From positions 1 to 22,767 of IMG/VR virus record IMGVR_UViG_3300046315_000103: a stretch of 22,767 nt of DNA; one strand, 5' to 3'. Below the pieces are notes generated by a model, which saw nothing but the letters and a program-made list of their open reading frames with translations, was not told where the DNA came from and searched no databases. Shown one piece after another: positions 244 through 16,554 of the stretch (its first letter is position 1; every line of letters begins with the position of its first letter). This stretch comes from a virus. The position numbers were made by a program, and so were the translations under genes.

Positions 244-906
244 TTATTTAGCATGATTATTTTTATAATGATAATAATATTTTTTGGTTAACTCTATAAG
301 TTCGCGATCAATTTGTTTTACAACAATTGGTGTGGTAAGATCACTACATGCGAACAATAATACAATTTGTGAAATCCATATTTCATACATCTCATAAATG
401 CACATAGCATAGATACAAGTTTGTACAAAATAATTTTCAATCCATTCAATTGGTTTTTCTTTTTTGCTTGTCTTGAAGTCAATCACAGACAATACACCAT
501 TGTAATAGCCAACACAATCAACAGTTCCCGCCAATTTAAGTTTATGCGAATATAAAGTATGTTCAAGCAAATGTACTTTAGAGATCTTATTGATAGACTC
601 TTTAAATTTACCAAATACCATCTTTTGTAATCCAGTAGAATCTTTATGATCTATTGGATTACCCAATAGATATTGTTCTGCTAAGTGATGAATATAAGTA
701 CCGTTGGCAGAAGCGACATCACATATTCGTTGCGCTTCTACTTCTCCTACTCGTTTCCTCCATTTGTTTAATTTATCCTTACCAAATTCCCCAACTATAC
801 TAGTAACTGATGGGTAATATTGACCAGATATGTCATAATGCCGCACCCCATCAATATCTATTCTTTCGTAATGCTGGTTATTCCAAAAATCCAATTCTAT
901 GGTCAT
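244..906 (-). CDS. PD-(D/E)XK (RecB/Cas4-like) exonuclease
   Basis: 220 aa. The nuclease core is visible: E115, then GTVD with D130, then I-D-F-K-T-S-K with D143 and K145, and Q162 after it. An upstream G-T-Y-I-H-H-L-A-E-Q-Y-L helix (69-80) is the motif usually placed before the core in phage RecB-like nucleases. Such enzymes degrade DNA or process recombination and replication ends; the precise substrate cannot be read from sequence. The ATG at 906 is preceded by a 16-bp palindrome (909-924) and no strong ribosome site. It follows the FmdB-like gene by 25 bases and precedes the gp33-like gene, probably in one operon. Family call is firm, role less so. Confidence 0.8.
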   Translation of the reverse strand: MTIELDFWNNQHYERIDIDGVRHYDISGQYYPSVTSIVGEFGKDKLNKWRKRVGEVEAQRICDVASANGTYIHHLAEQYLLGNPIDHKDSTGLQKMVFGKFKESINKISKVHLLEHTLYSHKLKLAGTVDCVGYYNGVLSVIDFKTSKKEKPIEWIENYFVQTCIYAMCIYEMYEIWISQIVLLFACSDLTTPIVVKQIDRELIELTKKYYYHYKNNHAK

Positions 907-908
907 AA

Positions 909-924
909 TTATTAAATTTAATAA
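909..924. repeat. 16-bp palindrome TTATTAAATTTAATAA, copy 1
   Basis: Exact palindrome 2 bases upstream of the ATG at 906. Would cover the ribosome-binding region of that gene. Confidence 0.5.
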
Positions 925-931
925 ATCTCGC

Positions 932-1159
932 CTAAAAGCTATTCATAGAGTTGCCCGGAGTATTTCTCTTGATGTTATTCATTAGATCCTTAAATCCGTC
1001 ATCCATCTTTATCCCACCAATTTGCCCGACGGCATTCAGGATCACTGGAGTTTGTATTAAATGTGGATTGTCCTCTTTGTATTGATCTAATTCTGCAATT
1101 CGTAAGAACTTTTCCGTTCTTTCATGAGTATTAGTATCTCGGAAGCAGTAGGTTGGCAT
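932..1159 (-). CDS. Small FmdB-like conserved phage protein without zinc cysteines
   Basis: 75 aa starting M-P-T-Y-C-F-R-D, with a conserved-looking middle (ENPHLIQ) and a G-G-I-K-M-D-D-G-F-K segment near the C-terminus. Cyanophages carry small proteins starting MPTY that resemble the FmdB zinc ribbon. Here only one cysteine (C5) remains, so a zinc ribbon cannot form. Function unknown. Its start codon is the final ATG of regulatory cassette A (1157-1239), which should place it under that element. It sits 25 bases upstream of the RecB-like nuclease gene. Family resemblance is from memory. Confidence 0.6.
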   Translation of the reverse strand: MPTYCFRDTNTHERTEKFLRIAELDQYKEDNPHLIQTPVILNAVGQIGGIKMDDGFKDLMNNIKRNTPGNSMNSF

Positions 1160-1239
1160 TAGTTTTATGATTTAGTACTAGTAGTCATTATTTAAGTTGT
1201 CATGCGTTGTAGGGCATTCTAACCCCCTATCAACGTATG
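1157..1239 (-). repeat. Regulatory cassette A (copy of a four-member family)
   Basis: Minus-strand element ending exactly at the start codon of the gene at 932-1159. From the core ATGCCCTACAACGCAT (1217-1202) it aligns without gaps over 61 positions to copy B (about 48 identities, counted by eye). The part before the core aligns without gaps to copy C. In this copy the promoter box is degraded to TTAAATAA. The core forms a hairpin with the preceding bases: CGTTG and TAGGG pair with CAACG and CCCTA. An internal ATG opens a seven-codon frame (MTTSTKS) with the same stop as in copy B. Confidence 0.75.
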
Positions 1240-1259
1240 TCTGATATGTTTATCAGAAT

Positions 1260-1319
1260 AAAAAAGACGATTAAAGATATAGTGATAAATTACTTTATCA
1301 CTAAGTATATCTTCAATCG
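1260..1319 (-). terminator. Long stem-loop followed by U6
   Basis: Arms at 1268-1289 and 1294-1319 pair over about 22 bases with a four-base bulge and one mismatch. On the minus strand the stem is followed by UCUUUUUUA. It lies downstream of the gene at 1355-1759 and directly downstream of an early-type promoter at 1341-1369, so it could terminate transcription or form the stem-loop part of a promoter/stem-loop cassette. Confidence 0.65.
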
Positions 1320-1340
1320 CCGTCGCCACAATCCTTTTTT

Positions 1341-1369
1341 ATTATAACACAACTTTACCAAATTTGCAA
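1341..1369 (-). promoter_or_regulatory. Sigma70-type (early) promoter with extended -10
   Basis: Minus strand: TTGCAA at 1369-1364, a 17-base spacer, then TGTTATAAT with the -10 at 1346-1341. It overlaps the last codons of the gene at 1355-1759 and faces the stem-loop at 1260-1319 and the FmdB-like gene. The same TGTGTTATAAT or a close variant recurs at 6325, 16006 and 16543, and TGCTATAAT at 4801. Confidence 0.5.
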
Positions 1370-1759
1370 AGTATTTTGGTAATATTCTTTAATTCTTTTA
1401 GTTAATTTTCCATAAATTACTTTATTAGGTAATCCTGAACTGATAATGTCATCCTTATGATCTGAATCAATATCATCTAATACTGCGTCAATTAAACATT
1501 TGATATATTTAATGTCATCCATAGGCGTTCCCAATTCTTTCAATATCCGAAGTTGTTGTGCAACTCGGTTTTCTGATGAAGTATCTAGTAACCAAGTAAC
1601 CATCGCATTAATATCTTCAATTCCTTCAATTTGTACTTTACCAATAGTAGAAACGTTATTTCCAGCATAGAAAGTTCCTTTCCCCGCTAGAGGATTATTA
1701 TTCAATTCTACATTTTCTAGAATAAATTCTTTATTACTTTGTTTAATTAATAATCTCAT
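1355..1759 (-). CDS. Probable C-terminal piece of a split RNA ligase
   Basis: 134 aa with a strong AGGAG ribosome site before the ATG at 1759. Residues about 35-134 run V-S-T-I-G-K-V-Q-I-E-G-I-E-D-I, then S-S-E-N-R-V-A-Q-Q-L-R-I-L-K-E-L-G, then a helical end with an I-Y-G-K-L-T-K-R-I-K-E-Y-Y pattern. From memory this follows the C-terminal domain of Rnl2-type phage RNA ligases (TENRLEQGIEYL..., ending in KARKWY). The N-terminal catalytic part is the gene at 2566-3405, whose C-terminus is cut short, with an HNH endonuclease between them. If right, the two proteins may act together or the ligase is dead. Otherwise this is an unknown phage protein. Confidence 0.5.
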   Translation of the reverse strand: MRLLIKQSNKEFILENVELNNNPLAGKGTFYAGNNVSTIGKVQIEGIEDINAMVTWLLDTSSENRVAQQLRILKELGTPMDDIKYIKCLIDAVLDDIDSDHKDDIISSGLPNKVIYGKLTKRIKEYYQNTLQIW

Positions 1760-1779
1760 ATATTCTCCTACTAATTTAC

Positions 1780-1787
1780 TATAAATA
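1780..1787 (+). promoter_or_regulatory. Late-type promoter box TATAAATA
   Basis: Perfect match to the T4 late promoter box, on the plus strand 37 bases before the GTG of the HNH endonuclease gene. T4 homing endonuclease genes are often driven by their own late promoters, which fits this position. Confidence 0.55.
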
Positions 1788-1823
1788 TAATTAATACTTT
1801 ATAACCAAAGGGGAAATGCCACG

Positions 1824-2609
1824 GTGGATTATTTAATGTTATTCAATTCATTTGAGGTAAACTATCACTATTTAAACCGATACTTAAAATTCATTATAAA
1901 TTGTAAATCAGATCTGAATGATTACTCAGAAAATCATCATATTTTGCCAATAAGCATATTTTCTGAATTTAGATTAGAACCTAAAAATTTAGTAAAACTT
2001 ACCGCCAGACAACATTTTATTGCACATTGGATTCTATCTAAAGTATTTACCAAGAACAGACAAAGATTTTTAATGTTAAAAGCATTTGGTAGCATGAGTA
2101 GAGTTGGTGAATGTAATTCCGGTAGATTAAATGTATCTTCTAAGTTATTTGAGCAAGCTAGAATTGCCAACTCAGCAGCAATGAGATTAACAAATCCAAT
2201 GCACGATCCCAGTACCGTTGCTAAAATGAAAGAATCTTTTAAAATTTATAGACAATCTCCTAAAGGTGTTGAATTAAGAAAAAAACAAAGTGAATCTAGA
2301 AAAGGGGTTAATAATATTTCCCCAGAAGGAATCAAAAGACTCAGTGATTTATATTCAGGTGTTCCTCGTCCACAAACTAAAGAACACACTCAACTAATTA
2401 GACAAATTACTTCTCTTGGAGAATTTATTACACCTTTTGGTATATTTGATTCCCCAAACCAAGCATCGATGTCAGAATTAAACAAAGATAAATTATCCCG
2501 TTATCAGATTAATAAAAGATGTAAAGATGGTAGCAATGGATTTTCATTTAAAAGTAACGGAAGAGTTAACAAACGTGGTCTTCATAAAAGGAAAAATCAA
2601 AATCTTTAA
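1824..2609 (+). CDS. HNH homing endonuclease with NUMOD-like domains
   Basis: 261 aa. The HNH region is E-N-H-H-I-L-P (H38/H39), P-K-N-L (N55), and A-R-Q-H-F-I-A-H-W (H64, H68). Residues 124-160 (NPMHDPSTVAKMKES and following basic stretch) resemble NUMOD3 DNA-binding repeats. Residues about 195-245 (ITPFGIFDSPNQASM...) resemble a NUMOD1/IENR-type helix-turn-helix. It is the only gene on this strand for several kilobases and is flanked by the two putative RNA ligase pieces, typical of a free-standing homing gene inserted in a host gene. Its 3' end overlaps the 3' end of 2566-3405 by 44 bases, tail to tail. The GTG at 1824 follows AAAGGGG; an in-frame ATG at 1836 is the alternative. Confidence 0.85.
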   Translation: MDYLMLFNSFEVNYHYLNRYLKFIINCKSDLNDYSENHHILPISIFSEFRLEPKNLVKLTARQHFIAHWILSKVFTKNRQRFLMLKAFGSMSRVGECNSGRLNVSSKLFEQARIANSAAMRLTNPMHDPSTVAKMKESFKIYRQSPKGVELRKKQSESRKGVNNISPEGIKRLSDLYSGVPRPQTKEHTQLIRQITSLGEFITPFGIFDSPNQASMSELNKDKLSRYQINKRCKDGSNGFSFKSNGRVNKRGLHKRKNQNL

Positions 2610-3405
2610 TATTATTTTGAAGACAGAGATTGATTAATTTTTGTTCATCTGCTGCCGTCAATTTAATCCCAGATAAATAATTAGTAATACCCAGACCAGA
2701 AAATTTTTCCCCTACGGACTTAAATACATAATCAAAATCAGTAAGGTGAGAATAAGCATATTTTGGTGAAAATACTAATCCTTCACCAATACCATCGACT
2801 CCAAAATATGCACCGACTGGGCAATGGGTTTCTACTTCTTTAGTATATTGTACCAATAAATCTTGTGCTGCTTGTGGATTTTTAAAATCAACATCTATCT
2901 CGTAAGTTGGAAAGTTGTCTATATGGTACAATCCTATCTCACGGTTTGGTTCAAATTCAATAAAGTTATTATAAAAATGTTCTAACTCATTGGGGTATAT
3001 CACCTTGATAGAAAATACTATGAATGTTTTATGAATTTTTGATACTGCTACCCCAGACTGGACACCATTACCTATCCATTCTCCATATAGAACTACACTT
3101 TCTACATCAGCAAATGTATTAATAATATCATTTTTTACTACCTCTTGTATTTCTACAATATTAGCAAACACCCATTTGGCAAATTCATAATTATCATTAT
3201 CTGGATGAATAATTTTTTTTCGAGATTGTGCATAAAAACTACCATCTTTATTGATCACAATGCTTGAGTTGGAACCGTTAGTTTTAATTCTTCCAATATA
3301 AGGTACTACGGTTGGCATGAATGTATCAAAGTTTTTTTGTGCCAACTTTACTACATTTCTAAATTGTGCGATCTTGGGAAATGGATAATGTACTGCTTCT
3401 GTCAT
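2566..3405 (-). CDS. Rnl2-type RNA ligase, catalytic part, C-terminus apparently lost
   Basis: 279 aa nucleotidyltransferase. Motif I K41-T-N-G carries the AMP-accepting lysine; then Y-A-Q-S-R-K (58-63), motif IIIa L-Y-G-E-W-I-G (E109), motif IV E-G-L-V-F (E208), and motif V F-K-S-V-G-E-K-F (K229, K234). These enzymes seal RNA ends, in T4 repairing tRNA cut by host defence. After motif V the expected helical C-terminal domain is absent; the last about 40 residues look unrelated, and the end overlaps the convergent HNH gene. The missing domain seems to be the next minus-strand gene (1355-1759). GAGGA precedes the ATG at 3405, which lies 2 bases after the stop of the gene at 3410-3697. Confidence 0.85.
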   Translation of the reverse strand: MTEAVHYPFPKIAQFRNVVKLAQKNFDTFMPTVVPYIGRIKTNGSNSSIVINKDGSFYAQSRKKIIHPDNDNYEFAKWVFANIVEIQEVVKNDIINTFADVESVVLYGEWIGNGVQSGVAVSKIHKTFIVFSIKVIYPNELEHFYNNFIEFEPNREIGLYHIDNFPTYEIDVDFKNPQAAQDLLVQYTKEVETHCPVGAYFGVDGIGEGLVFSPKYAYSHLTDFDYVFKSVGEKFSGLGITNYLSGIKLTAADEQKLINLCLQNNIKDFDFSFYEDHVC

Positions 3406-3897: not shown

Positions 3898-4737
3898 TTA
3901 ATATAAAATTAATTGTCTATGTTCACGCCAACCTTTATATATACCCCCAACTCTACCACTATCGACATATGCAGCATGATCGAAAACGCTATAGTGCTTA
4001 GACCCAATCAACTTATCAACTAATTTTTTAGCAGCATCTATAGAACATTGCTTATTGTGATTGGAATAACTCAGCCATGCACTACGAGCGGCACACATAG
4101 TCAACTTGTCCCCCAAGTTCATCGACTCTTCTTCTGGTTTTATCCAAGGGAGATGCCAATCAGTCAATTTTGGGGAAGAATTGTTAAATAATTCTTCCAT
4201 AATTAAAGCAATCCTTCTAAATTCTGGCTTTACTCCATCTGCACAACGTAACCTGAAGAAATATGGGAAATTAGTAGAGGTTACAATAATAGGGATTCTG
4301 GCATAACCATCTAATTGCGAATTAGTGTCTTGTTTGTGTATACCACTATAATTATTTTTTATATATTCAATATCACTATACATCTTAGTGAGGTAAGAAG
4401 AATTTAAGTCATCTATTTGCTTCCGATCTACTATTATATCACCAACCATACCAGGACGATCTGATGTCCAGATGGGAATATAACAATCCGCAACAATATT
4501 ATCAATAAATTTCTGTTTATTTACCGCACGAGAAGAAAAGCTATTATTAGCAACAGTTCTTGATTTATTCAATTCCGCTTGACAATGCCCTTTCGCAAAT
4601 CTATGCAGTAAAAATGATGTAATTCTATCCCCATGTTCACTAATACTATCTGCTAATATACTAACATCAACAATACCGTTATCTTTATTGTACTGAGTAA
4701 TTCTCAGCAATTCATCCAACATTAAGTCTGGGGTCAT
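3898..4737 (-). CDS. thyX: Flavin-dependent thymidylate synthase ThyX, with altered RHR motif
   Basis: 279 aa. It makes dTMP from dUMP with methylenetetrahydrofolate, FAD and NADPH, supplying dTTP for AT-rich DNA. Visible family features: I-S-E-H-G-D-R-I-T-S-F (32-42), S-S-R-A (68-71), Y-I-P-I-W...R-P-G-M (86-97), F-F-R-L-R-C-A (160-166), W-H-L-P (194-197), C-A-A-R-S-A-W-L-S-Y (215-224), and the C-terminal Y-S-V-F-D-H...G-W-R-E-H-R. The ThyX signature RHRx7S reads K58-S59-R60-x7-S68: the arginine and serine are kept but the histidine is serine. Length fits the long cyanophage form. A 30-base hairpin and an early-type -10 precede it. Confidence 0.8.
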   Translation of the reverse strand: MTPDLMLDELLRITQYNKDNGIVDVSILADSISEHGDRITSFLLHRFAKGHCQAELNKSRTVANNSFSSRAVNKQKFIDNIVADCYIPIWTSDRPGMVGDIIVDRKQIDDLNSSYLTKMYSDIEYIKNNYSGIHKQDTNSQLDGYARIPIIVTSTNFPYFFRLRCADGVKPEFRRIALIMEELFNNSSPKLTDWHLPWIKPEEESMNLGDKLTMCAARSAWLSYSNHNKQCSIDAAKKLVDKLIGSKHYSVFDHAAYVDSGRVGGIYKGWREHRQLILY

Positions 4738-4767
4738 TTGTTTTATTAGAATTAATAATTTTGGGGG

Positions 4768-4799
4768 AAAGAAGAAAGATATCTATATCTTTCTTCTTT
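4768..4799 (-). terminator. Perfect 15-bp stem-loop
   Basis: Arms 4768-4782 and 4785-4799 are exact complements around a two-base centre. It lies between the stop of the DUF6433-like gene and thyX and directly follows a TGCTATAAT -10 (4801-4809), so on the nascent minus-strand RNA it would be at the very 5' end. It could also terminate readthrough from upstream; no U-run follows on this strand (CCCCC follows). Confidence 0.6.
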
Positions 4800-4800
4800 T

Positions 4801-4809
4801 ATTATAGCA
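4801..4809 (-). promoter_or_regulatory. Extended -10 promoter element upstream of thyX
   Basis: Minus strand TGCTATAAT, a perfect extended -10, with no convincing -35 (TGTATG at 17 bases). It would drive thyX, nblA, the 95-aa gene and the RNA ligase, with a hairpin at the transcript start. Confidence 0.45.
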
Positions 4810-4822
4810 CAAATTTAGGAAA

Positions 4823-5374
4823 TCATACAGATTCTGGTGAGTAATCTCGAATAATTTCTGCGTCAATTAATCGCTCTTTAAGTGGAGGTTCTTTCCATTG
4901 GATCTCAGGAAATGCTAATTTAATAGCATCAAATGGAATGACATACTTGCGAGTACCTTTCCAGATAGTATCAAATGACCGATTGAAAATTCGGATCAGC
5001 AGATCTGATTCTGATTCATGTAGAGATTCTAATAATTCGATATACAGCATTTCAATTTTATTTTGAGATAGTTGAGGGGCACCACCAACTATAAATCGAT
5101 ATAAATTTCGGTGTTCTACCAATAACCGAGAATGATCGGTGCCAATAGGGACTACATTAGGAGTATAGGGTGGTTCTCCTTCTGGTAAACGAAATTTCAA
5201 TTCATGATTATAGATCAATAATACTAACGTTTTTAAGGCATCTCCATGAACAGAATTGCGAAATTCTGTAATTAGGTCTGCTTTTTTTTTATTCCCTACT
5301 ACTTTAGAAATTTTAGCAAATATTTCTGGGAATAGCAGATCATTAGATGCTGGATTTATGTTTTTGGAAGTCAT
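4823..5374 (-). CDS. Conserved T4-type cyanophage protein (DUF6433-like)
   Basis: 183 aa. The pattern L-K-F-R-L-P-E-G-E-P-P-Y-T-P-N (59-73) followed by P-I-G-T-D-H-S-R-L, then R-F-I-V-G-G-A, then L-L-E-S-L-H-E-S-E-S-D-L-L, and near the end A-F-P-E-I-Q-W, matches from memory a protein family universal in T4-type marine phages, listed I believe as DUF6433. The role is unknown; it is usually found among replication genes, as here beside RNase H. The ATG at 5374 lies inside the 3' end of the preceding gene (32-base overlap). Confidence 0.7.
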   Translation of the reverse strand: MTSKNINPASNDLLFPEIFAKISKVVGNKKKADLITEFRNSVHGDALKTLVLLIYNHELKFRLPEGEPPYTPNVVPIGTDHSRLLVEHRNLYRFIVGGAPQLSQNKIEMLYIELLESLHESESDLLIRIFNRSFDTIWKGTRKYVIPFDAIKLAFPEIQWKEPPLKERLIDAEIIRDYSPESV

Positions 5375-5702
5375 ATGTTTTTGATTTTAGTAATTTTGGC
5401 TTTTTAGTCTTTTTGTATTCCTCTAAGATAGTCTGTTCTATCTCGTCTGGAATCATAGAGAAATCTATTAATAATTTATTTCTCCGATAATTATCTATTA
5501 TATCACAATCCTGACAATATTGCTCAGGGTCTATATGAAATTTACTTAGAATTTTTTTGGTTACAGGAACCTGTCTTATTTTATCAACAAATGTATTGTC
5601 ATCTGAATGAATATTAGGTATACCATCACTGCGATCACCTTTAGCTATATGTAATGATAGTAGTTCACTCAATTGTTCTTGATCATAAAAATTGGTTTTC
5701 AC
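5343..5702 (-). CDS. RNase H/FEN-type exonuclease, C-terminal part (separate frame)
   Basis: 119 aa beginning at a GTG within the end of the upstream frame. L-L-S-L-H-I-A-K-G-D-R-S-D-G-I-P-N-I (14-31) is the helix-3-turn-helix DNA-binding segment of FEN-like 5'-3' exonucleases, which normally directly follows the nuclease core in one chain. The remainder is helical and basic as in T4 RNase H. The two frames overlap by 20 bases and differ by +1; removing one T from the T5 run (5687-5691) would fuse them into a single chain of about 285 aa, close to T4 RNase H (305). It is therefore the second half of one gene, by mutation, reading error or recoding. Confidence 0.75.
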   Translation of the reverse strand: MKTNFYDQEQLSELLSLHIAKGDRSDGIPNIHSDDNTFVDKIRQVPVTKKILSKFHIDPEQYCQDCDIIDNYRRNKLLIDFSMIPDEIEQTILEEYKKTKKPKLLKSKTYDFQKHKSSI

Positions 5703-6192
5703 AAATTTTTCCCTTTAATAAAATATTTTTCTGACTATTATAAATACTAACTGTTGGATACTTTAATAACTGGACAAAATCTTTATCACCAGAGATAATC
5801 ATAGTGCTAGTATTATTAATATATTCGTGTTTTGAGATAACTGCAATAATATCGTCGGCTTCGGCACCATCTACTTCCATTACGGAATATGAAGTATTTT
5901 TTAATGCCTGTTTAATCATATTGATGTCATTAAATATTTTTGACCAGTCGATTGTCGATTTTTTCCGATCTTCCTTTCTACTATACTTATAATAAGGAAA
6001 CACGTCCTTCCGCCAGTAATTATTATTATCAAAACATAAAATTACTGACCCATAATTATAGAAATGTGCAGAATAATTCTGCAATCGATTAATATATTGA
6101 TTTCTTACATAATCTACATCTATTGTGTCATATTGTTGTTGATTAATCAGGATTCCTATCAAAAATTGATTACTATCGCATAAAATACTCAT
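5683..6192 (-). CDS. RNase H/FEN-type 5'-3' exonuclease, N-terminal part
   Basis: 169 aa with the metal-binding acidic set of this family: D6 (C-D-S-N-Q-F), D55 (C-F-D-N-N-N-Y-W-R), E111, D113 and D114 (D-G-A-E-A-D-D-I-I), D136 and D138 (S-G-D-K-D-F-V-Q-L). The R-K-D-V-F-P-Y-Y-K-Y-S-R-K region matches the basic bridge helix. In T4 this enzyme removes RNA primers and flaps from lagging strands. The frame stops at TGA at 5683 just before the helix-turn-helix, which continues in the next frame. On its own this half would lack normal DNA-binding. A short ORF with an early-type promoter lies upstream (6235-6300). Confidence 0.8.
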   Translation of the reverse strand: MSILCDSNQFLIGILINQQQYDTIDVDYVRNQYINRLQNYSAHFYNYGSVILCFDNNNYWRKDVFPYYKYSRKEDRKKSTIDWSKIFNDINMIKQALKNTSYSVMEVDGAEADDIIAVISKHEYINNTSTMIISGDKDFVQLLKYPTVSIYNSQKNILLKGKICENQFL

Positions 6193-6324: not shown

Positions 6325-6353
6325 ATTATAACACAGTTATTAATGTATTGCCA
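6325..6353 (-). promoter_or_regulatory. Early-type promoter inside the 6.2-6.5 kb gap
   Basis: Minus strand TGGCAA at 6353-6348, a 17-base spacer, then TGTTATAAT with the -10 at 6330-6325. Points toward the short ORF at 6235-6300 and RNase H. It overlaps the outer part of cassette B, which faces the other way. Confidence 0.45.
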
Positions 6354-6426
6354 GACATCGCTAAAATGCTCTACAACGCACAAAAACTATAAATATGAGT
6401 ACTAGTGTCAAATCATAAAAATAATG
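6344..6426 (+). repeat. Regulatory cassette B (inverted, with intact late-type promoter)
   Basis: Plus-strand copy of the cassette family. The core ATGCTCTACAACGCAC starts at 6366; TATAAATA is at 6388-6395; the terminal ATG at 6424-6426 corresponds to the start codon of the gene after cassette A, but here it opens only a three-codon frame (MTF, then TAA) inside a stem-loop. The internal ATG opens a seven-codon frame (MSTSVKS). It is the only copy in this orientation and has no gene behind it. Confidence 0.75.
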
Positions 6427-6457
6427 ACCTTCTAAAATCAATTAGAAGGTCATTATT
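6420..6457. terminator. Perfect 16-bp bidirectional stem-loop
   Basis: Arms 6420-6435 and 6442-6457 are exact complements with loop AATCAA. It begins only 25 bases after the TATAAATA of cassette B, so a transcript from that box would be very short. A-rich on one side and T-rich on the other, so it can work in both directions. Confidence 0.7.
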
Positions 6458-8370: not shown

Positions 8371-8828
8371 ATATGCGAATCCTTAATTAATTTTAAATGA
8401 GATAATACATATTTGGAGGTATGTCTGTCACCAATAATTATTTTCTCAATAACGGGGAATAAATCAACGATTGGTTGATACTCCGCACAAATCCCAGCCT
8501 CTACCAAATCCAATGCAGCATACTGTAATGACCCCTTCTCGCTGCTAATAAAATTTAAACAAATACTAGTGATAATTCTATTTTTTTCTTTATCTTGTTC
8601 CTTATATACCCCATAAACTGGTTCGAGCATTCTTAATAAAGATACTAATTTCATCACTGCATAATGAGTACCAGTGATCCAGTAATCTAAATTATTAGAC
8701 ATCCTCAAAAAATAAATCAGTTCTGTTATTGTCAATAATTCTGGAGTATTGAATAGTTTGTCTCTAACCCCTTCACAATCGCATTCAAATTCTGTTAGAT
8801 CTTTGATCTTCATCAATTCTTTGATCAT
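8367..8828 (-). CDS. Hypothetical helical protein
   Basis: 153 aa, mostly helical, cysteine pair C17/C19 near the N-terminus (E-F-E-C-D-C-E-G). No motif recognised. Preceded by regulatory cassette C with an intact TATAAATA box 26 bases before the ATG, so probably late-expressed and co-transcribed with 7807-8370. Overlaps that gene by an ATGA. Confidence 0.6.
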   Translation of the reverse strand: MIKELMKIKDLTEFECDCEGVRDKLFNTPELLTITELIYFLRMSNNLDYWITGTHYAVMKLVSLLRMLEPVYGVYKEQDKEKNRIITSICLNFISSEKGSLQYAALDLVEAGICAEYQPIVDLFPVIEKIIIGDRHTSKYVLSHLKLIKDSHI

Positions 8829-8907
8829 TTTTATATTTTGATAATAATAATCTTATTTATAATTTCTGTGCGTTACACAGCATTCTACACCCCTCTCAGA
8901 GCATGTT
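8823..8907 (-). repeat. Regulatory cassette C with intact late-type promoter
   Basis: Minus-strand copy. The core ATGCTGTGTAACGCAC begins at 8883; TATAAATA is at 8861-8854; the aligned block ends at the start of the gene at 8828. It aligns to copy B over 61 positions without gaps (about 47 identities, counted by eye); its outer 26 bases align to copy A with about 21 identities. It follows a stem-loop (8912-8933) and the end of nrdB. Confidence 0.75.
8854..8861 (-). promoter_or_regulatory. Late-type promoter box TATAAATA
   Basis: Perfect T4-type late box on the minus strand, 26 bases before the ATG at 8828, part of cassette C. Confidence 0.6.
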
Positions 8908-8911
8908 AATC

Positions 8912-8959: not shown

Positions 8960-11023
8960 TTACAATTCAAAATTACTGAATTGCCCTTCACTTATATTTT
9001 TGTCAATATTACCAATTTGGTATGATAAGACCTCCGTTTCTTGTGGCGCGACACTTATATTAGAAGACTTCAGATAATTATCGATCCAGGGCAAAGGATT
9101 CTTGACAGAAACATCGTCATACAGTGGCTTCATATTGATCGCTTTAAGTCTACGATTCGCCACAAATTTAATATATTGTGATAATAGTTCTACATTCAAC
9201 CCCAATATACTACCATTTTTGAAAAGATATTCTGCCCACTCTATTTCCGCCGCTACTGCTAGATCAAACATAGTATATACCAATTGTTCTTCTTCTTTAA
9301 TAATATTAAGAATATCTTTATCCTCACCAGCTTGCCAATTCTTAATAATAGTTTCAGTAAGTCGAGTATGACAATTGCCCCCAACTGAAACCTTTTCATT
9401 ATATCTAACAAAAAATGCACCAGAAGGAACAGATAAACAATAAACCTTGCCACTATAATTTTGTTTAACCTTCTCTGTTTTTGAAGTAATATGAGAATTT
9501 CTAGTAGTCAATACGTTAATATTATACCCAACATATTTTTTTGACGGGTGAGTATGATATATTTTCCAATTACTAATAGCAAACACTTGTTGTAACTTTT
9601 TCAAACTCTTAGTATGATTGATAGTAAATTTAAACTTACCAGGAACGGAAGACATACAAGATTTGTTACCATTCAACGCCCTACATAAATTTATTAAATT
9701 TTGTGCCCATAATGTAGACTTACCCTGGATATTCACCCAACTAAAATATTTTTGTAAAGAAGCTGTTGGTATCTCGCAAGTTATGGTATATACTCCAGTT
9801 TTATATGTAATATAGTAATCGTAACTAATTCCTAATGCAACTAAAGATCTACCCAATTTACTCCAATTAGTCTCATTTTTTACATTAAACTCCACCTTTA
9901 ATTTATGTTCTAATACTTCTAAAACAGTACCACAATATTCAGTGTATATATTTAAAATTTCTATAGGACTTAATTCTACTGCTCCTGCTAAAACTATACC
10001 ACTAACCACAATTGCCTTACTTGATGTAAAATTAGTGGTAGCTGCTACCGATTCTTTCATTCTGCCTGTAAATAACTCACGCCACACCATTCGATGATCG
10101 GCAGTAACAATTTGTTCAATTCTGCCGGAATCGTCTATAAATTGATATACATCACCAATATATTGTTTATTAATAATAGCAGTGGGGTGAACAAATTCTA
10201 CTGCATTATTGTTGGTGTATTGTGCCACTTTATCTTCTTTTGTAATATCTTCAATTAGTTTCCATCCAGTATCCGTCAAAGCTTCATGTCCAGTGGTATA
10301 ACATGCTTCGTCTCTGGCAATTAAACTAATAATATCAGAAGAACCAATCATTTTAGCATTTTCTGCAAAGGCAAATGAGCAAGCGAATGATGTATAAAAT
10401 CTAATACCTTCTAAGATATTCACATTCACTATAGCTAGATATAATGAACGTTTTAATTCTAATAATGTTTGATTAGCGGTAACATTACCGTCTACTAATA
10501 ATGTCTTTATACTAGAGGTATTCCAACTACTAGAAAAATCAATAAACTCATCATAATATTTAGTGACTTGTTTGGTTCGCTCTACTATTTCTGGAATATT
10601 CAGAATATTATCAAAAATTTCAGATGGCTTATTATATACATTCTCAATGATATGAGTATATGATTCCGAATGAATAGTCTCAAAAAATCCCCAAATAATT
10701 ATATTTTTTTCTAATTCTGGTAGAGATACAAATGGCAAAAATGCTAACAATGTACTTCTAGATTGCACACTATCTAACAAAATTTGATATTTTAAATTGG
10801 ATGTGTAAATAAATTTTTCTTGTTCGGTCAAGTTTGAATAGTCTATTTTGTCTTTCTGTAATGTTATCTCCGTCGGACTCCAAAAGTATGATTTTTGAGT
10901 CTTGTATAGTTGATGTAACAGAGGATATCTATACTTATCGTATCGTTGTAAATTTAATTGTTGATCGAAAAATTGAGTTTGCTTCGTGAAGTCGATTGAG
11001 TTGTCTAAATTTATTACTGACAT
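8960..11023 (-). CDS. nrdB: Class Ia ribonucleotide reductase beta subunit with one intein
   Basis: 687 aa from the ATG at 11023; a GTG at 11059 is in frame but lies inside a palindrome and adds an odd 12-residue lead. Makes the diiron-tyrosyl radical cofactor for NrdA. Without the intein the protein is 377 aa, against 376 in E. coli, and residues keep E. coli numbering: D84 (Y-Q-I-L-L-D), E115 and H118 (E-T-I-H), radical Y122 (S-Y-T-H), then E205 and E239. The intein (residues 241-550) sits directly before the C-H pair whose His equals E. coli ligand H241. The C-terminus S-N-F-E-L matches the tail (SNFQL) that docks into NrdA. Precursor cannot bind metal correctly until spliced. Confidence 0.93.
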   Translation of the reverse strand: MSVINLDNSIDFTKQTQFFDQQLNLQRYDKYRYPLLHQLYKTQKSYFWSPTEITLQKDKIDYSNLTEQEKFIYTSNLKYQILLDSVQSRSTLLAFLPFVSLPELEKNIIIWGFFETIHSESYTHIIENVYNKPSEIFDNILNIPEIVERTKQVTKYYDEFIDFSSSWNTSSIKTLLVDGNVTANQTLLELKRSLYLAIVNVNILEGIRFYTSFACSFAFAENAKMIGSSDIISLIARDEACYTTGHEALTDTGWKLIEDITKEDKVAQYTNNNAVEFVHPTAIINKQYIGDVYQFIDDSGRIEQIVTADHRMVWRELFTGRMKESVAATTNFTSSKAIVVSGIVLAGAVELSPIEILNIYTEYCGTVLEVLEHKLKVEFNVKNETNWSKLGRSLVALGISYDYYITYKTGVYTITCEIPTASLQKYFSWVNIQGKSTLWAQNLINLCRALNGNKSCMSSVPGKFKFTINHTKSLKKLQQVFAISNWKIYHTHPSKKYVGYNINVLTTRNSHITSKTEKVKQNYSGKVYCLSVPSGAFFVRYNEKVSVGGNCHTRLTETIIKNWQAGEDKDILNIIKEEEQLVYTMFDLAVAAEIEWAEYLFKNGSILGLNVELLSQYIKFVANRRLKAINMKPLYDDVSVKNPLPWIDNYLKSSNISVAPQETEVLSYQIGNIDKNISEGQFSNFEL
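9374..10303 (-). other. NrdB intein (310 aa), endonuclease domain degenerate
   Basis: Begins at Cys after R-D-E-A and ends at Asn before extein C-H-T-R-L. Block A: C-Y-T-T-G-H-E-A-L-T-D-T-G; block B: I-V-T-A-D-H-R-M-V with the T-x-x-H; block F: G-K-V-Y-C-L-S-V-P; block G: S-V-G-G-N then Cys. The penultimate residue is Gly, not the usual His. The 150-residue middle has the size and helical rhythm of a LAGLIDADG endonuclease but no clear acidic motif pair, so the homing activity is probably lost. Confidence 0.85.
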
Positions 11024-11027
11024 GTTA

Positions 11028-11043
11028 TTATTAAATTTAATAA
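11028..11043. repeat. 16-bp palindrome TTATTAAATTTAATAA, copy 3
   Basis: Exact copy, 4 bases upstream of the nrdB ATG, the same position relative to the start as copy 1 before the RecB-like nuclease (909-924). Confidence 0.5.
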
Positions 11044-11050
11044 TTTTAAT

Positions 11051-11076
11051 AAATCCCACTAAATTTAGTGGGATTT
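11051..11076. terminator. 26-bp perfect palindrome plus direct repeat upstream of nrdB
   Basis: Positions 11051-11076 form a 13-bp perfect inverted repeat built on CCCACTAAA, and the unit AGTGGGATTTA is repeated once more directly after (11077-11087). It lies between the NrdA tail ORF and nrdB. It may terminate, or insulate nrdB, or bind a regulator; a TATAAATC late-like box (11082-11089, minus) overlaps its edge. Confidence 0.55.
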
Positions 11077-11103
11077 AGTGGGATTTATATTACCTAATAC
11101 CTT

Positions 11104-11277
11104 TTAAACGTTACAACTTTCGCAACTTTCTGTGTCATCATTAATGATCATTGGTGTGCAATACTTACGTTTATGTGGAGAAGTGGACAGTACTTCTGTC
11201 AGCAATTCTGGCTGAGGAATTGGTAATGGGTGTGATGGCAATATTTCGGTTAGCAATTCTGGATGTTGTTCTGGCAT
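11104..11277 (-). CDS. 57-aa ORF carrying a NrdA-type C-terminal redox tail
   Basis: ATG at 11277, TAA at 11104. The end reads D-D-T-E-S-C-E-S-C-N-V with C52 and C55, the kind of C-terminal cysteine pair that in class Ia NrdA (E. coli ...CESGACKI) re-reduces the active-site disulfide. The NrdA gene just upstream stops at N-D-G-R-D-D-Y-E, exactly where E. coli NrdA continues into its tail. The N-terminal half holds two copies of P-E-L-L-T-E-(I/V)-L joined by a Pro-rich stretch. The 63-base gap holds late-like boxes at 11311-11318 and 11285-11292. It is likely a detached tail acting in trans; alternatively an unrelated small CxxC protein. The gap has no room for an intron. Confidence 0.65.
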   Translation of the reverse strand: MPEQHPELLTEILPSHPLPIPQPELLTEVLSTSPHKRKYCTPMIINDDTESCESCNV

Positions 11278-11284
11278 GGTTCTT

Positions 11285-11318
11285 GATTTATATATTGGTG
11301 GGTAATTAATTATTTATC
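11285..11318 (-). promoter_or_regulatory. Late-type boxes before the NrdA tail ORF
   Basis: GATAAATA at 11318-11311 lies 34 bases before the ATG at 11277; a second box TATAAATC lies at 11292-11285. Together they suggest that the tail ORF has its own promoter. Confidence 0.35.
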
Positions 11319-11340
11319 TATTTTAACACATTTAACTGGA

Positions 11341-12312
11341 TTATTCATAATCATCTCGACCGTCATTTGAATTAGCATAATACAATGTTTTTAATCCCAT
11401 CTTGTACGCATATAAGACATCACCAATCATCGTACCCATTGGTATAGTTTGGTCTGAAAACCATTTAGGATCGTAATACAAGTTGGCTGAGATAGATTGG
11501 TCGAAGAATTTTTGAATTACGGCACAAATATTGATATATCCTGTATTTGTACTTTTTTCCCAACAATACTCATAATTATCTTCTAATTTTTTAAAATCTT
11601 TTACTATTTGTCGAATTAATCGATTCTTTGACTTTATGATTTGTAATGGTGCGCGAGGTAGTTCGATTCCATTAGTACTGTTACTAATTACAGAAGATGA
11701 TTGTACAGGCATCACCGCAGAAAATGCACTGTTTCTGAGTCCATTCATCAAAATTGATTCTCTCAACCCTTCCCAATCCATATTAAGATTATTAGGAACT
11801 ACATCATCTACACTTTTCCTGTAGTGATCGATAGGTAGAATTCCTTGTGAATATTTAGTTTTATAAAACCATTTACATTCACCTACTTCTTTGGCTAAGT
11901 TATTAGATGCAGATAATAGACAAAACATCTGCATTTCTGCAAGATCGTGAGTGATTTGCCACAATTCTTTATGATTATATGATAAACCTAATCGTGCAGC
12001 AAATGTTGCATAACCATTAATCCCTACCCCCAAATATCTTGCGGATTTAGTGGCTATCTCTGTACTAGGGATATTGTATTCCTGTATGTCGATGATCTGA
12101 TTTAATGATCTGATCTCTAAATCACACCATCGTTTCATTTTGATAAAGTTATCTGACATGTTGTCAGATAACTTATCCCAACTGATTGCGCCTAATACAC
12201 AAGATGTGATGCCTGGTGGCAGTCTGTCAATTATCTTTACATCATCTACTAATGTTTCGGTATTAGGATCGAATTGGCGGTCTGTTGCTATGCGGAAGAT
12301 GTCAGTAGTCAT
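11341..12312 (-). CDS. nrdA: Ribonucleotide reductase alpha subunit, C-terminal piece
   Basis: 323 aa. It picks up NrdA at G-I-T-S-C-V-L-G-A-I-S-W, where C38 equals E. coli C462, half of the redox pair with C225. Then A-R-Y-L-G-V-G-I-N-G-Y-A, F-Y-K-T-K-Y-S-Q-G-I-L-P-I-D, P-V-Q-S-S-S-V-I-S-N-S-T-N-G-I-E (equals PSETSSQISNATNGIE), F-F-D-Q-S-I-S-A-N, and L-K-T-L-Y-Y with Y311 and Y312 matching the radical-path tyrosines Y730/Y731. The first 37 residues have no counterpart in E. coli. The protein ends before the usual C-terminal cysteine tail. The start codon and next two codons lie inside regulatory cassette D. It must associate with the N-terminal piece for activity. Confidence 0.9.
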   Translation of the reverse strand: MTTDIFRIATDRQFDPNTETLVDDVKIIDRLPPGITSCVLGAISWDKLSDNMSDNFIKMKRWCDLEIRSLNQIIDIQEYNIPSTEIATKSARYLGVGINGYATFAARLGLSYNHKELWQITHDLAEMQMFCLLSASNNLAKEVGECKWFYKTKYSQGILPIDHYRKSVDDVVPNNLNMDWEGLRESILMNGLRNSAFSAVMPVQSSSVISNSTNGIELPRAPLQIIKSKNRLIRQIVKDFKKLEDNYEYCWEKSTNTGYINICAVIQKFFDQSISANLYYDPKWFSDQTIPMGTMIGDVLYAYKMGLKTLYYANSNDGRDDYE

Positions 12313-12363
12313 ATTTTTAATTATCGTACGTTGTAGGGCATCCTAGAGGGGTCTGAGAGGATA
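12302..12363 (-). repeat. Regulatory cassette D, between the two NrdA pieces
   Basis: Minus-strand copy filling the gap between the stop of the NrdA N-terminal piece (12364-12366) and the next start. The core ATGCCCTACAACG (12341-12329) equals that of cassette A, and the alignment runs without gaps through A-ATG-ACTACT, so the ATG at 12312 corresponds to the internal ATG of cassettes A and B. Outer bases include CCTCTCAGA and an ATCCT/AGGAT hairpin. No intact TATAAATA box: the corresponding positions read TTAAAAAT. Confidence 0.7.
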
Positions 12364-15300
12364 TTAGATAGGAAATTCAAGAAACTCATTGTCTTGAGAT
12401 AGCTTAATAAATTCGTCTAATTTATTATTCTTAACTGCTACAGTATGTTCGTGAATTCCAGTATCATTGATATCGGATATTGGGTGACTTGGCTGGATGA
12501 TTTCGACACATTGCCCAGAGAGAATCCCATTTATTACCATTCTATTTCTTTTTGGTTCGGTAAGACAATAAGTATCAGATAATCTTTCGATATTATGTGT
12601 GCTATATACCCACCAATCTCTATGATATTGATGTAAAGTTATATCAGAATCAATTAGAAATTCTGGAGGATTCCAATTCTGAATATATTGCCCAACAATC
12701 AAATCGTTTGCACGAACTTCAATTACATCATTACGGGATTGTATAAAAAACTTATGATATTCTGTACATTCTATGTTATGAATATTACCTTTATCATCTT
12801 GGAATTTAATATTGATTAGTTTCTGATCAATTCCAGTTTTTCTTACTACCGTATCAGACCACTCCCATCCATTCCATATCGTTACTGATTGATCTTCTAG
12901 CGTACCAATTGGCAAATATCCTTTATTGGTGAGTAATAATGTTTCTGGGGCAACACACAAGTTGCTCATATATACTCCGTCTAAGTACGGAGAATGTGTA
13001 TTAGCATGATCGACATTCATTATGTAAATCCGCGCCGTTTCAGATCGTTGTTCCATTAGATCTACAAACAGTTTTTGCATAGATACAACTTTCTTTCTCA
13101 CCCCATCCTTTTTCTCGTAATATTCATATAATTTATCAAATGCTGGGGTGCCAAAAGCATCATACAATCCTGGTGTATCACTATTACAGAATAGTGTGAT
13201 ATTTTGGTTATTTATAAATCTCTTATAAAACAATTCTGAAATACAAATACAGTAATCAAGATGCTTCACCGAAGATACTTCATTTGCACGATTGTTCTTG
13301 AGTTGAATGACTGTTTCGATCTCGTATCCGAAAATATGGTAATAGCAGGTTAGTTTTCCACCTCTCGCCGCCTGACTAAATGCCTTACCTGTCGATTCAA
13401 AGATTTTCAAAAATGGGACGATACCAGGATGAATAACTGTACCATTTCTGATACTACTACCAATAGACCTCATTCGTCCCACATTTAAACCAATACCACT
13501 AGATGCGGCAGTGAGCATAGCGGTAGCTTGATTATTAGCAGATATAGATAAAGTAGAATCGTCACAATCAAGTAAAGCGCAATTGTGTACAGATAATCCA
13601 GAAACTACAAAACTTTCATCTCCAGCAATTTGTAAATCATACACTATATTATCGTCAATACTATTAATAATTTTAACGCTTTTTATTTTAGTAAAATAAT
13701 TGTCATCTTTCCATATCCCATAAGCGTATGTTTTACTAGTATAATTTACTTTATGTACATCTTTACCAACTTCCATAATAAAATCATAATTTGCACTTCT
13801 AGGAAAATATATAGTATACACGTCTTGGCGTATACCATCATTATATTTTTGCACATTTATAGTTGGTGACAATTTTAATCGCAAAGATATATCAAATAAT
13901 TGATAAATTAGTTGTTTATTAGACAACCCTACCTGCAATCCCTGCGAATACGCACAACCATCTCCCCGAATTACTCCAATCAGTAATTGCTTTTGTAATT
14001 CTATAGAAGCATTCATTAATTCATAACAAATAAACTTTTTATCAAATTTATTGCTACACAGCCGGATAAACAAGTTAGTAATAATTTTAGAGCATATACT
14101 AACTTTAGTACTATTGTCGTAAGGATTATTAGAGGGAATTACTGTATACCCAAATACGTTTTGAATAATATTTACACAATCATCAATAATATATTTATCT
14201 TTGTTGCCGAAGGTAAATCCCATACTGCCACCATCAGTAGCATGTCCTTCCGCCAAATAATACCCAATTAATCTGAATAACTCTTCATTCAAATAAATTT
14301 TATTAGGTACATACCATATATCAGATCTATAACTTTTGTAATGTATCAATCCTTCTTCATTGATATCGTATCGACTACCAATATCAATTATATCTGATAT
14401 AATTAAATACTCAGTATTTACTACAGATTTATTGTATGCCACATGTACCCAATAATTATCATCTAATTCTTTTGCTGGTGTCCATTTTGGTTCAAATAAA
14501 TCATTTTTGTATAAATTAATACAATCTTCAGAATATTGTCTGGGATATTTCTCACAATATTTATAAATACCCTGACTGCATATACAAGAACGATGTTCAG
14601 AACCACGAATACATCCGACATCCTTAGCCGCAAATATTAAATGATCATCAGTTGAAACAAATTGATCATTCAAAGTAGAATAAGTATCAATAGCTACATA
14701 TTTTTGTTCAAAATATTTAGCATTCGTAGCTAATACTGACATCATTCTTCCAGCATGAGTCAACACCATATTTCCAACGGAAATAGTTTCAATTGGCTTT
14801 AATCCAGTACTTGTATGCACTAATTGTCCAGCAGGAAAACAGCTAGAAAAATTGCGTTGTTTAGTTCTCACGCCACTCATAATAGGCGTAGGGAGATTAA
14901 TTTCATGATCGGAGATTGCATGGTAGTAATCTATAACCGTAGCTAATCTAGTTTCTACTGGATAATCATGAAATACTGTGGCGGCAATCAGCATATACGC
15001 ATACTGCGGAATCTCATATACAAATCCAGTAGATCTGTCTTGAATTAGATACTTATCAATTAATTGTTGTAACGACGCATATGTAAATTTATAATCTTTA
15101 CTATGGTCAATTGCTTCATTTAGTACGTCCCAATCTTCTTTAGAGTAACTGTCAAATAAGATAGAATCATACTTGTTTTTGAATCTAGTGATATGGTGAT
15201 ATATATGTACTAACCCAAATGTTTTCCACTGTGGATATAAAGATTTATATAGTCCAAATAGTAGTAGTCGTGCTGCCACGTACTGATAGTTTGGTTCTTC

Positions 15301-15504
15301 GATAGTAATTAAATTATTAGCAGATGTCACTAATAGATTTTGAATATATTCTGTAGCAATCCCATCTGTTAATTGAATTTTACTATTCATTACTACTAAT
15401 GAAGGGGACACATCGTCAACCCCTTCACATGCACGAAATACCATTGTATGAATCTTTTCTAGATCTAATGGTTCTATGCTGCCATCTCTTTTAAATACTT
15501 GCAT
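12364..15504 (-). CDS. nrdA: Ribonucleotide reductase alpha subunit, N-terminal piece with two inteins
   Basis: 1046 aa precursor; extein about 477 aa. Residues 1-90 are the ATP-cone (F-K-R-D-G-S-I-E-P-L), the allosteric site. Intein 1 (222-641) ends before C642, equal to E. coli C225; the extein then runs C-A-L-L-D-C-D-D-S through N-V-G-R-M-R-S-I-G-S. Intein 2 (850-998) follows S-N-L and ends before C999, equal to the catalytic thiyl C439; N848 and E1001 match N437 and E441. After E-I-I-Q-P-S-H-P-I the chain leaves the family pattern, ends L-E-F-P-I at a TAA, and NrdA resumes in the next gene. Reduces ribonucleotides to deoxyribonucleotides. A short ORF (15535-15579) lies upstream. Confidence 0.92.
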   Translation of the reverse strand: MQVFKRDGSIEPLDLEKIHTMVFRACEGVDDVSPSLVVMNSKIQLTDGIATEYIQNLLVTSANNLITIEEPNYQYVAARLLLFGLYKSLYPQWKTFGLVHIYHHITRFKNKYDSILFDSYSKEDWDVLNEAIDHSKDYKFTYASLQQLIDKYLIQDRSTGFVYEIPQYAYMLIAATVFHDYPVETRLATVIDYYHAISDHEINLPTPIMSGVRTKQRNFSSCFPAGQLVHTSTGLKPIETISVGNMVLTHAGRMMSVLATNAKYFEQKYVAIDTYSTLNDQFVSTDDHLIFAAKDVGCIRGSEHRSCICSQGIYKYCEKYPRQYSEDCINLYKNDLFEPKWTPAKELDDNYWVHVAYNKSVVNTEYLIISDIIDIGSRYDINEEGLIHYKSYRSDIWYVPNKIYLNEELFRLIGYYLAEGHATDGGSMGFTFGNKDKYIIDDCVNIIQNVFGYTVIPSNNPYDNSTKVSICSKIITNLFIRLCSNKFDKKFICYELMNASIELQKQLLIGVIRGDGCAYSQGLQVGLSNKQLIYQLFDISLRLKLSPTINVQKYNDGIRQDVYTIYFPRSANYDFIMEVGKDVHKVNYTSKTYAYGIWKDDNYFTKIKSVKIINSIDDNIVYDLQIAGDESFVVSGLSVHNCALLDCDDSTLSISANNQATAMLTAASSGIGLNVGRMRSIGSSIRNGTVIHPGIVPFLKIFESTGKAFSQAARGGKLTCYYHIFGYEIETVIQLKNNRANEVSSVKHLDYCICISELFYKRFINNQNITLFCNSDTPGLYDAFGTPAFDKLYEYYEKKDGVRKKVVSMQKLFVDLMEQRSETARIYIMNVDHANTHSPYLDGVYMSNLCVAPETLLLTNKGYLPIGTLEDQSVTIWNGWEWSDTVVRKTGIDQKLINIKFQDDKGNIHNIECTEYHKFFIQSRNDVIEVRANDLIVGQYIQNWNPPEFLIDSDITLHQYHRDWWVYSTHNIERLSDTYCLTEPKRNRMVINGILSGQCVEIIQPSHPISDINDTGIHEHTVAVKNNKLDEFIKLSQDNEFLEFPI
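12511..12957 (-). other. NrdA intein 2, 149-aa mini-intein ending in Gln
   Basis: Cys start C-V-A-P-E-T-L-L-L-T-N-K-G; block B N-I-E-C-T-E-Y-H with T914 and H917; end D-T-Y-C-L-T-E-P-K-R-N then V-I-N-G-I-L-S-G-Q, next residue Cys. No endonuclease domain. The C-terminal residue is Gln rather than Asn and there is no penultimate His, a type known in some RNR inteins. Inserted exactly at the catalytic cysteine equal to E. coli C439. Confidence 0.88.
13582..14841 (-). other. NrdA intein 1, 420 aa with LAGLIDADG endonuclease
   Basis: Cys start C-F-P-A-G-Q-L-V-H-T; block B S-T-D-D-H-L-I-F with T285 and H288; endonuclease motifs L-I-G-Y-Y-L-A-E-G-H (412-421) and L-L-I-G-V-I-R-G-D-G-C (507-517), both with their acidic residue (E419, D515); block F V-Y-D-L-Q-I-A; end S-V-H-N followed by Cys. 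A complete intein whose homing endonuclease could be active. Also has four cysteines in 298-328 (V-G-C-I-R, H-R-S-C-I-C, K-Y-C-E, E-D-C) that could bind metal. Confidence 0.92.
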
Positions 15505-16005: not shown

Positions 16006-16035
16006 ATTATAACAGACTTAGTGAGATTATGCCAA
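16006..16035 (-). promoter_or_regulatory. Early-type promoter of the RNR operon
   Basis: Minus strand TTGGCA at 16035-16030, an 18-base spacer, then TGTTATAAT with the -10 at 16011-16006. Best -35 of the set. It overlaps the end of the HNH gene and would drive 15609-15977 and nrdA. AAAAAGGAAC follows the -10. Confidence 0.55.
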
Positions 16036-16554
16036 CCTAATCGGCTTATCCCAAGTAAGTTGATTCTCTATGTGTGCTTCAATTAGTAGTTCTAGTTTGA
16101 TCTGATGTTCTGGTTTGAATTGGATAGTTAGATCTGGCAACCAATTAGGTACTTCTTGTAAGTATCGTTCAGAAGACACTAATCCTGACTTTACTCCAAA
16201 TTGGAAATGTAAGTTTTGTAGATAATCAATAGATTGTGAACCAAAAGTTATTCTCTTACCATTTACTCTTGGCATAGCAATTTTTGTTTGATAACTGCCA
16301 ACACGATTATCACGATTATAGTTTATACCAATATCTAGTCCAGATGACTTCTTCTGTATTGATGAGTTGAACCAATTAGTGACTAATTCTAGATTACATA
16401 GCTTATTATTATTAGGATTGTCATCTAAATGATTGAGTACATAGTTTTGATTAGTCTTTTCTCCATATACTAGTTCATAGATTTTTACATTTTGCCCATT
16501 TGTCCTTATATCAAATCTACTAGTGATATTAATTACAACATCATTATAACACAA
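16027..16554 (-). CDS. HNH endonuclease with AP2-like domain, no normal start codon
   Basis: 175 codons open from a TTG directly after the primase stop. HNH_3-type motif Y-V-L-N-H-L-D-D-N-P-N-N-N (38-50) with H42 and N50, N-L-E-L-V-T (54-59), and N63. Residues 72-112 (G-S-Y-Q-T-K-I...V-N-G-K-R-I-T-F-G-S) resemble an AP2 DNA-binding domain, a common pairing in phage homing endonucleases. No ATG or GTG occurs in frame before the HNH motif; TTG at 16554 overlaps a promoter-like TGTGTTATAAT. It is in the same frame as the primase, separated by one TAA. It may be N-terminally truncated, start at TTG, or arise by readthrough. Confidence 0.75.
   Translation of the reverse strand: MCYNDVVINITSRFDIRTNGQNVKIYELVYGEKTNQNYVLNHLDDNPNNNKLCNLELVTNWFNSSIQKKSSGLDIGINYNRDNRVGSYQTKIAMPRVNGKRITFGSQSIDYLQNLHFQFGVKSGLVSSERYLQEVPNWLPDLTIQFKPEHQIKLELLIEAHIENQLTWDKPIRLA
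16543..16551 (-). promoter_or_regulatory. Extended -10 at the primase/HNH junction
   Basis: TGTTATAAT on the minus strand, identical to those at 1341, 6325 and 16006, starting 3 bases after the primase stop. No good -35. A transcript from here would begin inside the HNH frame. Confidence 0.35.

Follow-up and report, generated by a model that had tools for sequence, protein, structure and literature searches.

The window analysed here is the whole 22,767-base stretch of the IMG/VR virus record IMGVR_UViG_3300046315_000103, and the sibling sequences compared with it are IMG/VR contigs. On its minus strand nrdA, the gene for the α subunit of class Ia ribonucleotide reductase (RNR), is spread over three open reading frames (ORFs), here termed pieces A, B and C, which are followed in that order by nrdB. 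Piece A (12364..15504, 1046 residues) specifies the ATP cone, the all-α domain and the first half-barrel, with matches to PF03477, PF00317 and positions 2-213 of PF02867. Piece B (11341..12312, 323 residues) specifies the second half-barrel (PF02867 positions 224-522), and piece C (11104..11277, 57 residues) is a probable separate C-terminal redox tail with two LLTE[IV]L motifs and a CESC sequence. The nrdB gene (8960..11023, with PF00268 in two stretches) encodes the class Ia β partner. Alignment to seven intact phage NrdAs places the equivalents of C225 (13579-13581) and C439 (12508-12510) in A and those of C462 (12199-12201) and the Y730/Y731 tyrosine pair (11377-11382) in B. A and B together thus hold the class Ia α features: the ATP cone, the all-α domain, the barrel, the three active-site cysteines and the tyrosine pair. 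The two cysteines of the CESC sequence (11122-11124 and 11113-11115) are in C. Piece B ends in ...NSNDGRDDYE as a chain without the C-terminal redox cysteine pair, which sits on ORF C, and at this end (...YYANSNDGRDDYE) the intact NrdAs in the alignment run on into a tail with the cysteine pair. The first-pass annotation had described the three minus-strand ORFs and the distribution of active-site residues over separate chains correctly. Its estimate of about 85 residues between C439 and C462 comes to 84 on our count, made up of 47 after C439 in A and 37 before C462 in B. It did not mention the two inteins that A contains.

The three-piece nrdA is real. Two of three other IMG/VR contigs agree with the window at every base of 11040-15504, and the third, which stops inside A, is identical to the window over 11040-14500. 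The only indel between the window and the former two lies at about 6531, outside nrdA. The frames of the pieces stay apart in these contigs. A relative, L013 (contig 3300037882_001894), encodes A (619 residues), B (323 residues), C (57 residues) and nrdB in the order seen in the window. It is diverged from the window phage, with identities of 65% in the N-terminal part of A, 74% in B and, for C, 54% by gapped alignment or 44% by tblastn. The base-identical contigs and the same three ORFs in so diverged a relative rule out a sequencing or assembly error. Three cistrons are therefore kept in two related uncultured phages, with A and B of evident NrdA family identity and C of tail-like sequence. 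Comparison of the two phages by the proportions of nonsynonymous (pN) and synonymous (pS) differences gives pN/pS values of 0.21/0.71 and 0.21/0.82 for two parts of the body of A, 0.15/0.78 for the body of B and 0.40/0.66 for C. These values indicate that A and B are clearly, and C less clearly, subject to protein-level selection. Scans of viral contigs found split sets only in the contigs of the window phage and in L013; another contig from the scan, L019, has an intact nrdA. Among named phages there were no useful nucleotide matches to the window, and a search of genome contigs was likewise unproductive.

The A/B split falls after the finger loop, which connects the two five-stranded half-barrels of the enzyme (PMC9669993). 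The comparison with Aeromonas phage Aeh1 that the first-pass annotation had drawn holds, the split lying at the same profile position as that between nrdA-a and nrdA-b of that phage: the PF02867 match ends and resumes at positions 221/222 in Aeh1, 213/224 in the window and 213/223 in L013. In Aeh1, as in the window, a class Ia α is divided between C439 and C462, and each piece is extended at the split. The window extensions, a 29-residue C-terminal extension of A (12367..12453) and a 35-residue N-terminal extension of B (12208..12312), are both conserved in L013, with pN/pS values of 0.36/1.03 over 29 codons and 0.40/0.85 over 35 codons, respectively. The systems differ in that Aeh1 has the homing endonuclease gene mobE in the gap and keeps its C-terminal cysteines on nrdA-b (SCDVCKV), whereas in the window the tail is a third ORF, A carries two inteins and the gap is without an endonuclease gene. 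In the window the gap is 51 nucleotides long and contains repeat sequence; in L013 it is a single nucleotide. The Aeh1 tails were reportedly found by Crona in 2011 to be essential interaction domains. The two-part Aeh1 α forms an active (α-a + α-b)2β2 enzyme (PMC2988022, PMC3267527). The coliphages vB_EcoM_PTE-Eco15 and UoN_LDJ77_1 likewise have nrdA as two ORFs separated by another gene, which is annotated as a homing endonuclease and as a hypothetical protein, respectively. The PTE-Eco15 gene aligns as split at the same site as that of the window but has its tail fused to the second piece (EDCSSCKL). Together with Aeh1 and PTE-Eco15, the window points to the gap between the half-barrels as a site of recurrent breakage at which the products are retained; here there is a further break. 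The extensions may derive from a tolerated insertion, since two intact NrdAs, those of Vibrio phage vB_VmeM-32 (L046 1211-3589) and Acinetobacter phage AB1I1T (L047 1202-3616), have a long insertion at the split site. The intact NrdA of the T5-like BUCT632 has a shorter one between C439 and C462. All three have their extra residues at the same place as the window but are single chains with the tail fused. The joined extension region of L013 matched 51 named records, every one over its first 19-20 residues only.

Piece C is probably the separated NrdA tail. This second separation, also proposed in the first-pass annotation, is less firmly supported than the A/B split; it is backed by the presence of C in L013 and by a motif common to C and the fused tails of cyanophage-type NrdAs. 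Piece B stops just short of the flexible linker to the tail, and the cysteine pair is fused in all 19 other phage NrdA C-termini checked (18 and Aeh1 nrdA-b), a small choice out of the 4787 records matching B. In cyanophages and their relatives, the pair is often preceded by a motif such as DLLNQIL or ELINQLL. The pattern [EDNQ][LIV][LIV][NST][QE][LIVM][LE], defined after both tail sets had been viewed and with Q included to admit L013, is present in 6/9 of these tails. It occurs twice in each C (ELLTEIL and ELLTEVL in the window; ELLTEIL and QLLTEVL in L013) and nowhere in the predicted ORFs of 80 residues or more of the two phages, 49,752 residues in total. Over its whole length C scores above shuffled sequences (P<0.05) in 8/10 comparisons with five cyanophage-type tails. 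The common motif hints that ordinary phage RNRs also have such an element for docking. Window C has no Pfam match, neither version of C has a PHROGs match, and the L013 version, the only one used as a query, has no match in named phages. Structure prediction was uninformative: the mean predicted local distance difference test score was 61 for C (two-row alignment, no secondary structure) and 32 for B (three-row alignment).

A NATAAATA-type site precedes C in both phages: in the window the late-promoter-like GATAAATA (11311..11318, minus strand) lies 41 nucleotides upstream of C, and in L013 AATAAATA lies 31 nucleotides upstream. Across the sibling contig, NATAAATA is found at most 45 nucleotides upstream of 22/76 ORFs, against 5.6 in shuffles. 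Between C and nrdB there is a terminator-like hairpin, an inverted repeat on the minus strand (11049..11088, z -3.6), and L013 likewise has one downstream of C (z -7.3). L013 has a further strong hairpin between B and C (10834-10890, z -4.8) with the late-promoter-like AATAAATA in its loop, which is reminiscent of the way late promoters and RNA hairpins are arranged at T4-type endonuclease genes (PMC2988022).

We favor, with a probability of roughly two in three, the reading that these genes specify a class Ia RNR whose α subunit consists of three polypeptides, with C acting in trans as the redox tail. We infer the intein splicing, assembly, docking and catalysis that it entails. From A, once its inteins had been spliced out, would come the ATP cone and the first half-barrel together with C225 and the radical cysteine C439; from B, the second half-barrel together with C462 and the two tyrosines of the radical path; and the conserved extensions at the split would dock the two to each other. 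C would dock in trans via the two LLTE[IV]L motifs and use its CxxC to reduce the C225-C462 disulfide with electrons received from thioredoxin or glutaredoxin. We would put at even odds the fuller proposal that the three α chains are non-covalent and that the detached 57-residue peptide, with two docking motifs and a CxxC, is a separate redox cofactor; a promoter-like site and a terminator-like hairpin of its own could then allow the amount of C relative to that of the catalytic chains to be adjusted late in infection. The C-terminal tail of class I RNRs is held to act as a tethered swinging arm. A natural untethered tail, if true, would afford a direct test of the need for tethering and of what docks the tail. 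The ordinary class I tail is described as disordered and as reducing the active site (PMC9669993).

Several observations weigh against a three-chain α. The layout is seen in two phages only, and C is the least constrained piece, with differences at the three codon positions of 23/21/25 over 50 codons. The extensions of A and B have borderline similarity to those of Aeh1 (shuffle P 0.04, 0.18, 0.30 and 0.30), and an hhalign profile comparison of the extensions against four phages gave a probability of 0.4%, with a score equalled in 4/200 shuffles. The tail motif was, as said, defined post hoc. A profile of the nine tails ranks window C first of 2945 stop-to-stop segments, at an E-value of 0.29 that falls short of the inclusion threshold; the match spans only the CESC end of C (profile positions 26-38) and so has no bearing on the motif, and L013 C is not among the matches at E<=20. 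Without its last ten residues, C is at chance in 9/10 comparisons with the tails, the exception being window C against L019 (P 0.007). Finally, the thioredoxin and glutaredoxin Pfam families have no match in the two contigs, and the electron donor would hence be the host's, of another family or encoded beyond the contigs.

One alternative is an Aeh1-like α made of A and B only, with C an unrelated small gene that happens to encode a cysteine pair and a host redoxin reducing the A/B disulfide directly. C is short and without a Pfam or PHROGs match, its likeness to cyanophage-type tails outside the motif and the CxxC is mostly at chance, the tail profile meets its CESC end alone, and selection on it is weak. 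Further, dithiothreitol gives the tail-less class II NrdJa low activity (PMC4520616). We nevertheless regard this alternative as unlikely, because C directly follows the position of the missing tail and is cysteine-ended in both phages, and because a motif found in 6/9 fused tails comes twice in C and is absent from all predicted ORFs that are 80 residues or longer. We consider it very unlikely that a joined product nonetheless arises from the pieces through an intron, protein trans-splicing, a programmed frameshift, ribosome hopping or stop readthrough. The single frame common to A, B and C in the window would suit such joining, as would a terminase of the sibling contig that is apparently split by intein halves. 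However, six in-frame stops, counting those of the pieces themselves, separate the window pieces, and both the A-B and the B-C frame relations differ in L013, which speaks against readthrough, frameshifting and hopping. An alternative genetic code is rejected, since all three stop codons terminate predicted ORFs of at least 80 residues in both contigs (65 TAA, 24 TGA and 19 TAG among 108 in the sibling contig; 39, 11 and 9 among 59 in that of the relative). No intron family was matched at E<=1 in the window, where a single sub-threshold ctRNA match was seen, or in L013 9000-11300 beyond two sub-threshold matches. By eye, neither the A/B nor the B/C break has split-intein halves: the A extension is without a cysteine and the B extension without an HN end. 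Only 37 residues of B precede C462, and the extensions are conserved as protein.

A non-working, decaying nrdA broken up by mobile elements could be read from the two inteins, the repeat in the gap and the several HNH endonuclease genes in the genome. Yet this is highly improbable: the bodies of A and B show a pN of 0.15-0.21 against a pS of 0.71-0.82, the catalytic residues checked are all retained, and the same layout occurs in a diverged relative. The least probable alternative is that an intact nrdA elsewhere in the genome supplies the working enzyme and the pieces are a relic. The contigs are fragments and might have missed such a gene, but a single PF02867 gene set is present in the 109-kb sibling contig and in the 59-kb contig of the relative, with no second set in either of these fragments, and the split set adjoins nrdB and is under selection. 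A full-length nrdA elsewhere was not encountered in these contigs, and the look at relatives that the first-pass annotation had proposed led to L013, with its three pieces.

A three-chain α with its redox tail in trans has partial parallels among known systems. In the class II NrdJa/NrdJb of Pseudomonas aeruginosa, the redox cysteines act in trans on a separate chain, the role that we predict for the cysteine-ended C. NrdJb serves as the mediator of disulfide exchange; it is needed in vivo and interacts with NrdJa close to its C-terminus (PMC4520616). That system differs in being class II and adenosylcobalamin-dependent, with the NrdJa barrel unsplit, whereas the window has class I genes that include nrdB. 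In a review that covered 128 phage genomes encoding RNRs, 16 are listed with split genes (PMC3653736). Among its cases are Aeromonas phage phiAS4, whose nrdD (class III) has three coding regions arising by a process given as unknown; Brochothrix phage A9, whose nrdE comprises four ORFs interrupted by introns and an intein-encoded endonuclease; Listeria phage A511/P100, with a split nrdA bearing traces of an intein; and Thermus phage phiYS40, with another multi-piece RNR gene in its nrdJ (PMC3653736). These resemble the window in that their RNR genes are divided into two, three or four coding regions, and differ from it in that the passages on them describe no separate redox tail. In a literature search that had most subscription papers outside its reach, no three-part α or class I tail in trans was recognised. 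The first-pass remark that it knew of no three-part α subunit is qualified by what is already in print: the two-piece NrdA, including that of the coliphages, the three-ORF phage nrdD and the class II tail in trans. Apparently new is a class I α with its redox tail as a separate gene.

The gap between A and B in the window is taken up by a copy of a dispersed, promoter-like repeat (12298..12367, minus strand), and B begins inside this copy, with its start codon and initial residues. Other copies were found by blastn and an ungapped scan. The best other copy in the sibling contig is intergenic and matches over 40 nucleotides at 95% (blastn, E 4e-13). A repeat profile built from 17 copies, the gap copy among them, finds the latter at E 8e-17, a value to be read with the caveat that this copy is itself a seed. 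In the sibling contig the profile matches 23 places at E<1e-5, of which 17 are seeds and 22 are not within a predicted ORF; the contig of the relative has 2 matches. The window has four copies of about 90 nucleotides with a late-promoter-like box, the other three being at 1150-1240 (minus strand), 6341-6434 (plus strand) and 8822-8909 (minus strand), and a TATAAATA-like late-promoter box is seen in many copies. The first-pass proposal that a regulatory cassette occupies the split is hence borne out for the window but does not extend to L013, where the A/B junction is a stop codon, one base and a start codon. As L013 is split without it, the cassette probably did not bring the split about, and it either arrived afterwards or was lost in L013. 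An HNH endonuclease is encoded near nrdA in the window (16027-16554, minus strand); its relatives included, there are 8 such ORFs on the sibling contig and 6 on that of the relative. In the sibling contig, the repeat lies behind the 3' end of 4/8 HNH endonuclease genes against 8/100 other ORFs (Fisher P 0.005), or 5/8 against 8/100 at a laxer cut-off (P 0.0005). The corresponding figures in the contig of the relative are 1/6 and 1/53 (P 0.19), and the one gene of the 53 has a NUMOD3 motif. It may be loosely inferred that an endonuclease cassette formerly stood at the split site.

The RNR gene set is further marked by three inteins, all on the minus strand. Intein 1 of A (13582..14841, 420 residues, with boundaries from the alignment to intact NrdA) is of the LAGLIDADG type and matches PF14890/PF14528, and intein 2 (12511..12957) is a mini-intein of 149 residues with a 144-residue counterpart in L013. 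Intein 1 directly precedes the C225 equivalent and intein 2 the C439 equivalent, so that each of these active-site cysteines would occupy the +1 position of its intein, and mature A would be much shorter than 1046 residues. The last residue of intein 2 is Gln in the window and Asn in L013. The nrdB intein (9374-10303) was delimited by eye and by computation and has no Pfam intein match. L013 has the mini-intein and an insertion at the matching place of NrdB; intein 1 is absent from it. In the 109-kb sibling contig, the terminase large subunit also looks fractured, its parts having been assigned by eye. One piece (857-3268 of the contig stretch 100001-109315, minus strand) bears what look like intein parts at either end and has a LAGLIDADG intein inside it, and the C-terminal nuclease piece on the opposite strand (4544-5767 of that stretch, plus strand) starts with an apparent C-intein (PDB CatC, E 1.7e-10). 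A short segment consisting of RQSGK and an apparent N-intein lies at contig positions 75581-75700 (minus strand), 25 kb from these pieces. This arrangement suggests a terminase that is trans-spliced by two split inteins.

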